A stretch of 64,000 bases of DNA, taken from the NCBI GenBank assembly GCA_001724175.1, contig MEDT01000042.1, forward strand, positions 22,605 to 86,604, written 5' to 3'. The position numbers were made by a program, and so were the translations under genes. Positions within the stretch are counted from its first letter, which is position 1; each line of letters opens with the position of its first letter. This document shows positions 56,773 through 59,168 of this stretch, one piece after another. This stretch comes from Cytophagaceae bacterium SCN 52-12. GTDB taxonomy: Bacteria; Bacteroidota; Bacteroidia; Cytophagales; Spirosomataceae. The notes beneath the pieces were generated by a model. That model had not been told where the DNA came from, made no database searches, and saw only the letters and a list, made by a program, of their open reading frames with translations.

Positions 56773-57345
56773 ATGTCATCCTACAGAACCCATAGCGAGC
56801 TGCAGCTTACCGCCTTATTGCGAGAAGGCGACGGGGAAGCCTTTGTGGAGATATACAGGAGAAACTGGCGAATGATGTATAACTCGGCTTTCAAACGTCT
56901 GCGCGACGAAAAGCAATGCGAAGACCTGGTGCAGAACGTCTTTACGGATCTGTGGGAAAGGCGCGGGGAAGTGGAAATTGACAACCTTTCCGCCTACCTG
57001 AGCACCGCCGTAAGGTTCCAGGTCATTAAGCACAGCACCAGGACGCGCGACGCTTCTCCGCTGACAGACACCCTGGAAAGCTCATTGATTTCTTCCCTGC
57101 GGTCGGAGGATCCGCTGATCGAAAAAGAAATCCTTGAAATTGTAAAGCTCTGGATAGCCGCCCTCCCTGAAAAACGGCGGGAGATCTTCCTGATGCACTA
57201 TATGGAAGAGCTGAGCTCGTCGAGGATAGCGGAAGTACTTGGAGTTTCTCAGAAAACGGTCCAGAACCAGATTGCTACGGCTACGAATAGCATACGGGAC
57301 CAGTTGTCAAAAATATTGTTTATTTTACTTATAGCTGCTAATTGA
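56773..57345 (+). CDS. ECF RNA polymerase sigma factor (L5)
   Basis: Start MSSYRTHSELQ; CEDLVQNVFTDLWERRGEVEIDN; LPEKRREIFLMHYMEELSSSRIAEVLGVSQKTVQNQI; tail KILFILLIAAN. The 56194 ORF start runs antisense through the cupin gene and is rejected. Confidence 0.92.
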   Translation: MSSYRTHSELQLTALLREGDGEAFVEIYRRNWRMMYNSAFKRLRDEKQCEDLVQNVFTDLWERRGEVEIDNLSAYLSTAVRFQVIKHSTRTRDASPLTDTLESSLISSLRSEDPLIEKEILEIVKLWIAALPEKRREIFLMHYMEELSSSRIAEVLGVSQKTVQNQIATATNSIRDQLSKILFILLIAAN

Positions 57346-57371
57346 GGTGCCTTCGACTCCGCTCAGGCACC
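57346..57371 (+). repeat. Palindromic repeat copy R1
   Basis: GGTGCCTTCGACTCCGCTCAGGCACC, 7-bp terminal inverted repeat GGTGCCT/AGGCACC. Confidence 0.9.
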
Positions 57372-57422
57372 GGGGCGATTCTACTAACATGTGTTGGCCC
57401 CTAAGCAAATATAAAAATCAAA

Positions 57423-57447
57423 GGTGCCTGAGCGGAGTCGAAGGCAC
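57423..57447 (-). repeat. Palindromic repeat copy R2 (inverted relative to R1)
   Basis: GGTGCCTGAGCGGAGTCGAAGGCAC on + strand, reverse complement of R1 core. Confidence 0.9.
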
Positions 57448-57469
57448 GATACTATACTTCTATATAAAA

Positions 57470-57880
57470 ATGAAAGGATGGATGTACATACTGAAATGTA
57501 GCGATGGAAGCTACTATACCGGAAGCACAAATAATCTGGAATTAAGACTAGCACAGCATCAGAGCGGCTTAGGGGCGATACACACAAGTAAATTCTTACC
57601 GGCTGAACTTGTTTACTATGAAGAATTTCCACGAATTGATATGGCTTTTTACAGGGAAAAACAAGTACAGGGCTGGAGCAGAAAAAAGAAGGAAGCGCTC
57701 ATTGACGGCAAGACCGAAAATCTTAAAAAAGCCGCAGAATGTATAAACGATACACACTTTAGGAATTGGAAGGGTGCCTTCGACTCCGCTCAGACACCAG
57801 AAGGAGATTTCACTCAGACACCGGAACGAGATTTCACTCAGGCACCGGAACGAGATTCCACTGAGGATCACTGTGCCTGA
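57470..57880 (+). CDS. GIY-YIG nuclease family protein (YhbQ/UPF0213-like single domain)
   Basis: MYILKCSDGSYYTGSTNNLELRLAQHQSG...AFYREKQVQGWSRKKKEALI: GIY/YIG-equivalent, Arg and Glu motifs. Last ~35 aa are repeat-derived. Confidence 0.88.
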   Translation: MKGWMYILKCSDGSYYTGSTNNLELRLAQHQSGLGAIHTSKFLPAELVYYEEFPRIDMAFYREKQVQGWSRKKKEALIDGKTENLKKAAECINDTHFRNWKGAFDSAQTPEGDFTQTPERDFTQAPERDSTEDHCA

Positions 57881-57896
57881 GCGGAGTCGAAGGCAC
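57773..57896 (+). repeat. Degenerate repeat cluster R3 to R4 at and beyond the 3' end of the GIY-YIG ORF
   Basis: R3 GGTGCCTTCGACTCCGCTCAGACACC (57773-57798); 24-nt degenerate units (AGAAGGAGATTTCACTCAGACACC, GGAACGAGATTTCACTCAGGCACC, GGAACGAGATTCCACTGAGG..); inverted R4 GTGCCTGAGCGGAGTCGAAGGCAC (57873-57896). Confidence 0.9.
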
Positions 57897-57971: not shown

Positions 57972-59168
57972 ATGAAACCATTCGACCACCGGCAGGAGCT
58001 GATCATTATTTTCAGAAAATACCTGGACGGGACGGCTACGCCGGAAGAAAAGCAGTTTGTGGAAGCCTGGTACGGGTCTTTCGAAAAAGAACCCGGAATA
58101 CTTGACAATTACCCGGAAACCGGGCAGGAGCTGCTCGAAGCCCGGATGGAGCAGGCGCTGAGGATACATATCGATAATGACCGTCCGCGGTCCACCTGGA
58201 AAACTATAACCAGGAACATCAGGCTGGGTCGTGTGGCTGCTGCTGCGGTCCTGATCCTGTCGCTTGCGGGTTCCTGGTACTATTTCACTAACACCGGGCT
58301 GCGGGAGCCGGCCCAAACCGCTATGGCCGCCGGACCGGACCTGGCCCCGGGCGGCAACCGCGCCGTGCTCACCCTCAGCAACGGGAAGCAGATCGTCCTG
58401 GACAGCGTCTCGACCGGGATGCTGGCCCGGCAGGGCAATACGGTGATTCACAAGGTAGAAGACGGCCTTGTTTCCTATACGGGAGAAGGCCCCCGGGCCG
58501 GGCAGGATTTTAACACCATTACAGCTCCCGCCGGCGGCAAATACAGCGTCGTGCTGCCCGACGGAAGCAGGGTCTGGCTGAATGCAGAATCTTCCATTAC
58601 GTTCCCGACTGCTTTCTCACCGGAAGAAAGGTCGGTAAAGATTTCCGGTGAGGTTTATTTCGAGATCGCGAAAGACGCCCGGCGCCCCTTCAGCGTACAG
58701 GTAGGAGCCCTTCAGAAGGTGCGGGTGCTCGGTACGCATTTCAACATCAACGCCTACCGCGATGAAGGCAACATTACGACCACACTGCTCGAAGGCAGCG
58801 TAGAAGTTTTGGCATCAGGCGACGCGCGCCCGGTTATGCTCAAACCCGGGGAGCAGGCCGCTCTGTCGGGATCAGGCAGGATCAATGTCCGCGGCGACAT
58901 CAATACAGAGGAGATCGTCGCCTGGAAAAACGGGATGTTCCAGTTTGAAAAAGCCGATATAGAGACGGTTATGAGGCAGTTCAGCCGCTGGTACAACGTC
59001 GATGTCATTTACGAAGGCCCGTTGCCGTCTAAAACCTTTTCAGGGAAAATAGATCGCAAGGTCAACGCCTCCGAAGCGCTTGATATCCTGTCTTTTACGG
59101 GGCTTAATTTCAGAATAGAAGCTTTGCCGGCCGGGTCGAAAAAAGGAAAAATTGTAATACTTCCCTGA
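57972..59168 (+). CDS. FecR-type anti-sigma factor (L5)
   Basis: TAPAGGKYSVVLPDGSRVWLNAESSITFPTAF, VKISGEVYFEI, VRVLGTHFNINAY. Confidence 0.93.
   Translation: MKPFDHRQELIIIFRKYLDGTATPEEKQFVEAWYGSFEKEPGILDNYPETGQELLEARMEQALRIHIDNDRPRSTWKTITRNIRLGRVAAAAVLILSLAGSWYYFTNTGLREPAQTAMAAGPDLAPGGNRAVLTLSNGKQIVLDSVSTGMLARQGNTVIHKVEDGLVSYTGEGPRAGQDFNTITAPAGGKYSVVLPDGSRVWLNAESSITFPTAFSPEERSVKISGEVYFEIAKDARRPFSVQVGALQKVRVLGTHFNINAYRDEGNITTTLLEGSVEVLASGDARPVMLKPGEQAALSGSGRINVRGDINTEEIVAWKNGMFQFEKADIETVMRQFSRWYNVDVIYEGPLPSKTFSGKIDRKVNASEALDILSFTGLNFRIEALPAGSKKGKIVILP

Follow-up and report, generated by a model that had tools for sequence, protein, structure and literature searches.

A small GIY-YIG nuclease and its cognate hairpin repeats: a probable mobile module resembling RAYT/REPIN systems

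A small GIY-YIG nuclease gene and one class of hairpin repeat travel together, and both the inverted repeat pairs and the whole modules formed with the gene are present or absent at orthologous sites. This enzyme-hairpin pairing recurs across many bacteria, which makes it very probable that gene and hairpin constitute a single mobile unit. The 551-bp stretch described here, located in the window (the entire 64-kb stretch of DNA that was analysed), is likely to be an autonomous mobile module in which the nuclease is accompanied by its own cognate hairpins and which, through putative steps of cleavage and spread, would work like a RAYT/REPIN system.

The window belongs to a Bacteroidota MAG of 5.1 Mb and 79% completeness (G000). 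The features of the module and its surroundings are as follows, in window coordinates.

56773–57345, + strand: ECF sigma factor gene on the upstream side of the module; R1 follows directly on its stop codon (from ORF and sequence)
57346–57371, + strand: R1, hairpin unit GGTGCC-TTCGACTCCGCTCA-GGCACC (stem, fixed loop, stem; from sequence and loop/stem anatomy)
57372–57422, no strand: 51-nt spacer from R1 to R2, which fold together into one long hairpin
57423–57447, − strand: R2, inverted copy of R1, completing the inverted pair
57470–57880, + strand: single-domain GIY-YIG nuclease ORF, 136 aa, with the conserved domain at about 57470–57754
57773–57798, + strand: R3, second direct copy, with one stem mismatch to R1
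57806–57853, + strand: two degenerate half-copies of 24 bp each, arranged in tandem, GATTTCACTCAG(A/G)CACCGGAACGA (repeat family D1)
57873–57896, − strand: R4, inverted copy and right end of the module
57972–59168, + strand: FecR anti-sigma gene downstream of the insertion (from ORF and gap analysis)

That the module was inserted between the sigma and FecR genes is supported by a comparison of gaps within G000. The gap is 626 bp at this locus and 75 bp with the module removed; at three further sigma-FecR loci of G000 the two genes are separated by 67, 83 and 103 bp, in agreement with the first-pass annotation, according to which the module separates genes that are otherwise direct neighbours. 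The core TTCGACTCCGCTCAG matches four times in the window, always at the module, where shuffled sequences lead one to expect 0.16 matches. The suspected AT-richness of the ORF was also confirmed, with a G+C content of 0.41–0.42 across the GIY-YIG gene versus 0.53–0.66 in the flanking genes. No direct duplication is visible at 57346/57896, and at the empty site of the Chryseobacterium module described below the flanks are too diverged or A-rich to show one. The annotated order R1, R2, ORF, R3, R4 holds for the positions of the four repeat units and has to be amended for the ORF, which runs through R3 and ends inside R4. To that description must be added the degenerate half-copies that occupy the DNA between R3 and R4; a third such half-copy, at 57782, overlaps R3.

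R1 does start at the base following the sigma stop codon, and R2 is, as annotated, its inversion around the spacer, the 25 nt of R2 being 100% complementary. When folded as DNA, R1 and R2 form a single long hairpin (−37.6 kcal/mol, z −9.7) that includes the GGGGC..GCCCC pair already noticed in the spacer. An RNA family at this position was rejected: the Rfam matches are to miRNA models, fall below threshold and would be obtained with any long hairpin. Individual units of the window consist of a 6-bp stem plus a T-A pair, a 12-nt loop and a CC(G) tail, and the CGTC tag is absent. The loop hardly varies among the 304 distinct units compared, the CC(G) tail follows after the stem, and five stem positions vary while still pairing. 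At the inner three of these, pairing was observed at 0.88–0.90 against an expectation of 0.35–0.56, with neighbouring registers at chance; when one unit per locus was taken, 60 of 61 were paired at each of the three. In a set of 39 distinct units, 92.7% of cells were paired (61.8% when shuffled) and stem covariation reached 0.74, compared with 0.17 after shuffling and 0.08–0.14 in slid controls. A stem that covaries around an invariant loop means that the hairpin form is maintained and that the stem sequence is free. Selection on the hairpin and copying from arm to arm would both produce this covariation. With palindromic units in the range of 20–40 bp, many intergenic copies and inverted pairs, the window repeats have the DNA features of REP/REPIN sequences.

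The assignment of the ORF as a single-domain GIY-YIG protein was upheld by Pfam (PF01541, E 2.7e-17). Its invariant residues are Y6, Y15, Y16, G18, R26, H30 and E63, and the fold of the AlphaFold model (pLDDT 87) is most similar to those of UPF0213 and the structure-selective GIY-YIG nuclease Slx1. The C-terminal tail of the protein (57755–57880) is translated R3 together with its degenerate copies. R3 encodes AFDSAQ at the protein end, and other frames yield peptides such as LSGVEG. Over 76 aa the window protein is 37% identical (E 2e-13) to a Neisseria homologue which we take to be the published Ssn. On account of this identity and of the nearness of the model to UPF0213 and Slx1, the enzyme is probably an Ssn-like protein with putative ssDNA-cutting activity. 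It shares with Ssn-type proteins the single GIY-YIG domain of about 90–140 aa with catalytic residues, the homology to the Neisseria enzyme, and gene-linked cognate sequences present in several genomic copies.

The partnership of enzyme and repeat, proposed in the first-pass annotation together with a check for clustering of repeat copies with GIY-YIG ORFs, was examined in relatives (80 from GTDB genome contigs plus family matches) and the association proved strong. Enrichment of 9-mers was calculated without any motif, comparing sequence within 400 bp of the gene with sequence farther away, which was eight times larger. The most enriched 9-mers near the gene were pieces of the window core, CTCCGCTCA occurring near it in 42 loci and far from it in 12. 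The degenerate core TTCGRCTNCGCTCA gave 264 matches within 500 bp of the gene (134 kb, 108 GIY-YIG loci) against 59 in the 630 kb farther off, while the reversed pattern used as a control gave none near and two far. By a motif-free measure of repeats, the segment around the GIY-YIG gene was the most repeat-rich at 56 of the 64 loci (p 1.5e-39). Loci lacking the window core bear sister hairpins, namely TTCGACARGCTCA, TTCGAGARCCTCA or TGTCA-tagged units. One of four loop classes, and usually a single class, is found within 600 bp in 102 of 107 loci. On the GIY-YIG tree, which has few columns and many unresolved forks, three of these classes follow the enzyme, none of 500 shuffles giving as few changes: class A requires 13 changes (34.5 when shuffled), class C 5 (17) and class D 5 (11.6). 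Class B showed no clustering on this tree. Among 297 Bacteroidota genomes, at least eight cores were present in 22 of the 48 that carry a close GIY-YIG, compared with 26 of the remaining 249 (p 6e-8). These association tests make no correction for phylogeny.

With at most three mismatches allowed in the full unit, G000 contains nine occurrences of the core, of which four belong to the GIY-YIG locus. Each of the other five places has a second, inverted core and thus represents a REPIN-like pair without a gene; the stems there differ and are nevertheless self-complementary (e.g. GTGGC/GCCAC, GGGCC/GGCCC). The genome also contains a second, decayed GIY-YIG gene with one TAG (L038, C8:37084–37351), amid many copies of CTTCGACAAGCTCAG / CTGAGCTCCGTCGAAG, which belong to another loop class than that of the window module.

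The proposed check for orthologous sites free of the module gave a positive result in Chryseobacterium. There a whole 1,012-bp GIY-YIG and repeat module (L054) is missing from the orthologous site of a sister species (G523), with 79.6% identity over the joined 500 bp, and the empty site contains no repeat at all. A second case (L047 compared with G496) is less clean. Individual pairs show the same behaviour: G050 has some 20 dispersed copies of an inverted pair of approximately 72 bp whose outer ends are TGTCA/TGACA, and at several of these sites sister species lack it, often showing an ordinary terminator hairpin instead. Presence and absence were also seen at a site in genus g32 (L162), the junction being unclean because the intergenic DNA is too diverged. 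In this genus (L226–L243), an ordinary terminator-like hairpin is often found at the same convergent-gene junction when the pair is absent, as though a terminator had been displaced or co-opted by the pair. Dispersed pairs were intergenic in 24 of 25 cases.

Two further observations concern the copy number of cores and genes. In G178, G238 and G280 the core is present in high copy and the small GIY-YIG is of a more distant type, with 0–1 cores in the 3-kb stretch examined. Tandem head-to-tail arrays of small GIY-YIG genes, with periods of about 317, 323 and 365 bp and apparently no A–D repeats nearby, occur in G238 (C1:1733881–1734727 and 1384667–1385513) and G276 (C1:135236–136894).

Homologues outside Bacteroidota were sought by tblastn against plasmid records. 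In Azospirillum lipoferum 4B, sufB and sufC enclose the GIY-YIG gene, which has CGTCATCCCCGCGAAGGCGGGGATCCA on either side, and CGTC-type repeats, several of them with a CCA tail, flank GIY-YIG genes in Azospirillum, Shinella, Rhizobium, Neorhizobium, Neisseria gonorrhoeae, Photobacterium and Aeromonas. The Neisseria homologue sits amid CGTCATTCCCGCG repeats. In the cyanobacterium Planktothrix agardhii, plasmid p1 (L351) bears a GIY-YIG with TGTCATTCTGAG units between an MmeI-type restriction-modification gene and the DISARM gene drmA. In a plasmid of Sphingomonas paeninsulae (L337, 5001–5270), a GIY-YIG frame between rnc and era has neither repeats nor an annotated full-length gene, and is possibly a decaying insertion. 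The repeat-linked group does not extend to GIY-YIG genes of the yazA, UvrC, Legionella and Xanthomonas types, which were examined for comparison; such repeats were not found at UvrC-type and yazA-type loci.

According to Di Nocera et al. (PMC3733652), no transposase is dedicated to CGTC REPs. Small GIY-YIG nucleases might be the missing partner enzymes of these and related REPs across bacterial phyla, constituting a second, non-HUH route to REPs and REPINs in which loop recognition would co-evolve with the enzyme; we regard this generalisation as close to an even call. Many bacterial genomes contain short palindromic repeats by the hundred. The enzyme that spreads the CGTC class was recorded as unknown (PMC3733652), and the consistent linkage with one GIY-YIG subfamily in Bacteroidota, alphaproteobacteria, Neisseria and cyanobacteria offers a concrete candidate. 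The matched enzyme-hairpin pairs provide a set for bench tests of specificity, and if the enzymes are sequence-specific ssDNA cutters, every loop class is a new specificity.

According to the preferred model, the enzyme would recognise the loop sequence in its hairpin form, that is in single-stranded or cruciform DNA exposed during replication or DNA uptake, and would nick the hairpin. Host repair, or annealing of the released strands, could then spread the inverted pairs that lack the enzyme. The whole module would spread more rarely than the pairs, and the targets would mostly be gaps just after genes. Nicking at a hairpin followed by spread through repair or annealing would make the system RAYT/REPIN-like, with a GIY-YIG in place of the HUH-tyrosine transposase. 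GIY-YIG enzymes are not known to have strand-transfer activity, and for this reason the spread step is the weakest part of the mechanism. Two findings run counter to the model, besides the more distant type of small GIY-YIG in the high-copy genomes G178, G238 and G280 mentioned above. One is the existence of core-rich genomes without a small GIY-YIG: the complete genome G108, with 195 class-A cores the richest of all, has no such gene, and in G382, G297 and G384, likewise rich in cores, all GIY-YIG proteins are long (UvrC or others). Either the enzyme was lost from these genomes or another agent is active, both being possible. The other is that no target-site duplication is visible; at most presence/absence sites, which are diverged intergenic DNA with an ordinary terminator hairpin in the relatives, the junctions are not sharp. 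The cores of G108 are mostly arranged as TGTCAT-tagged inverted pairs at about 44-bp spacing, and a replication strand bias among them was considered and dropped (98 and 97 cores).

A serious rival is control of DNA uptake by an Ssn-type enzyme: a site-specific ssDNA nuclease would cut incoming or replicating strands at the repeats, which would spread mainly through natural transformation and recombination, with no transposition by the enzyme. The closest biochemically studied relatives, Ssn of Neisseria meningitidis, reportedly cleave ssDNA at a repeat and thereby influence transformation. The homologue in Neisseria is similar to the window protein and likewise surrounded by repeats, and no transferase chemistry is required. 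However, neither the appearance of the whole L054 module at a new site, between flanks without shared repeats, nor the dispersal of repeat pairs whose architecture is fixed would be expected if the enzyme did nothing but control uptake. The explanation could well be true, short of being what we would expect, and it is compatible with the mobile module. The repeats might alternatively be bidirectional transcription terminators or mRNA stabilisers with an incidental GIY-YIG nearby. The start of R1 at the sigma stop codon, the position of many dispersed copies between convergent genes (12 of 25 by our count) and the ordinary terminator hairpin that often takes the place of a missing pair in relatives all speak for such a function, which may be a true secondary role of the repeats. 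As the sole explanation it is very unlikely, since it fails to predict the concentration of repeats at one nuclease subfamily in several phyla, the matching of loop class to enzyme clade, or a fixed loop with a free stem.

Two other accounts assign the spread of the repeats to a different agent. GIY-YIG is a classical homing-nuclease fold, and the gene could be a free-standing homing endonuclease that inserts into clusters of old REPs. The CTNCG of the loop fits CNNNG, the cutting motif of I-TevI-like enzymes, and core-rich genomes without a small GIY-YIG, such as G108, would be accommodated. Yet in the one clear case (L054) the empty allele contains no repeat and hence no intact recognition site split by the module, the loop class follows the enzyme clade, and Y1/RAYT, the sole other known REP enzyme, never adjoins these repeats (0 of 30 loci); homing is therefore unlikely. 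The remaining candidate is a RAYT, a Y1 tyrosine transposase mobilising the repeats as in classical REP systems. The REP-like design (short palindromes, inverted pairs, intergenic location) and the Y1 genes carried by 55 of 61 family genomes would suit it, but all four repeat classes are absent from the 1.5 kb around each of the 30 Y1/RAYT loci in the same genomes (0 of 30, compared with 23 of 27 GIY-YIG loci; p 3e-12). At the level of gene-repeat linkage the RAYT partnership is refuted, and as a whole it is hardly credible. The Y1_Tnp loci of Bacteroidota (L196–L225) have short palindromes of their own, e.g. GTCCCGTAGGGAC and CGTCGCGTAGCGACC, so that these genomes apparently harbour a REP system distinct from the one described here.

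Returning to the mobile module, its nearest parallel among known systems is to be found in Neisseria. Ssn GIY-YIG nucleases are said to cut only single-stranded DNA at a Neisseria repeat (NTS) and to have many homologues with other specificities. Like them, the window enzyme is a small single-domain GIY-YIG, homologous in sequence, with a multi-copy cognate repeat that also flanks the gene. The window-type repeat differs in its fixed 12–14-nt loop, its freely varying, covarying stem and a CC(G) 3' tail instead of a CGTC tag, and further in that the repeats occur in inverted pairs and the gene and repeats form a module present or absent at orthologous sites. The pairing of a GIY-YIG with a repeat is thus reportedly known already from Neisseria Ssn, and the module with covarying stems is a variant of it. 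Within the papers covered, a literature search for links of GIY-YIG with REP, palindromes or dRS3 found none.

UPF0213/YazA-type proteins (PDB 1zg2, 1ywl) and Slx1 have the same fold and catalytic layout as the window protein, whereas yazA-type genes lie in a conserved housekeeping operon without repeats. CGTC-tagged REPs (PMC3733652) are of the same type as the repeats beside the alphaproteobacterial, Neisseria, Photobacterium and Aeromonas GIY-YIG genes, and class-D units of Bacteroidota share their TGTC/CGTC tags; the window units, in contrast, have a shorter stem and a larger loop and lack the CGTC tag. The combination of a CGTC/TGTC/CCTC tag, an 8–9-bp stem, a 4–5-nt loop and a CCA tail is seen in the repeats of alphaproteobacterial homologues and not in the window units. 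With RAYT (TnpA-REP)/REPIN systems (PMC2817692, PMC3116915) the module shares intergenic, multi-copy short palindromes in inverted pairs, and in both the enzyme gene lies amid repeats of a class that is particular to its clade. It differs in that the partner is a GIY-YIG enzyme instead of the Y1 (HUH) tyrosine transposase of a RAYT-REP system (REPtron), and in that the loop is conserved here rather than the stem or a GTAG tag. The window repeat is therefore REP-like, and neither a RAYT REP nor a CGTC REP.
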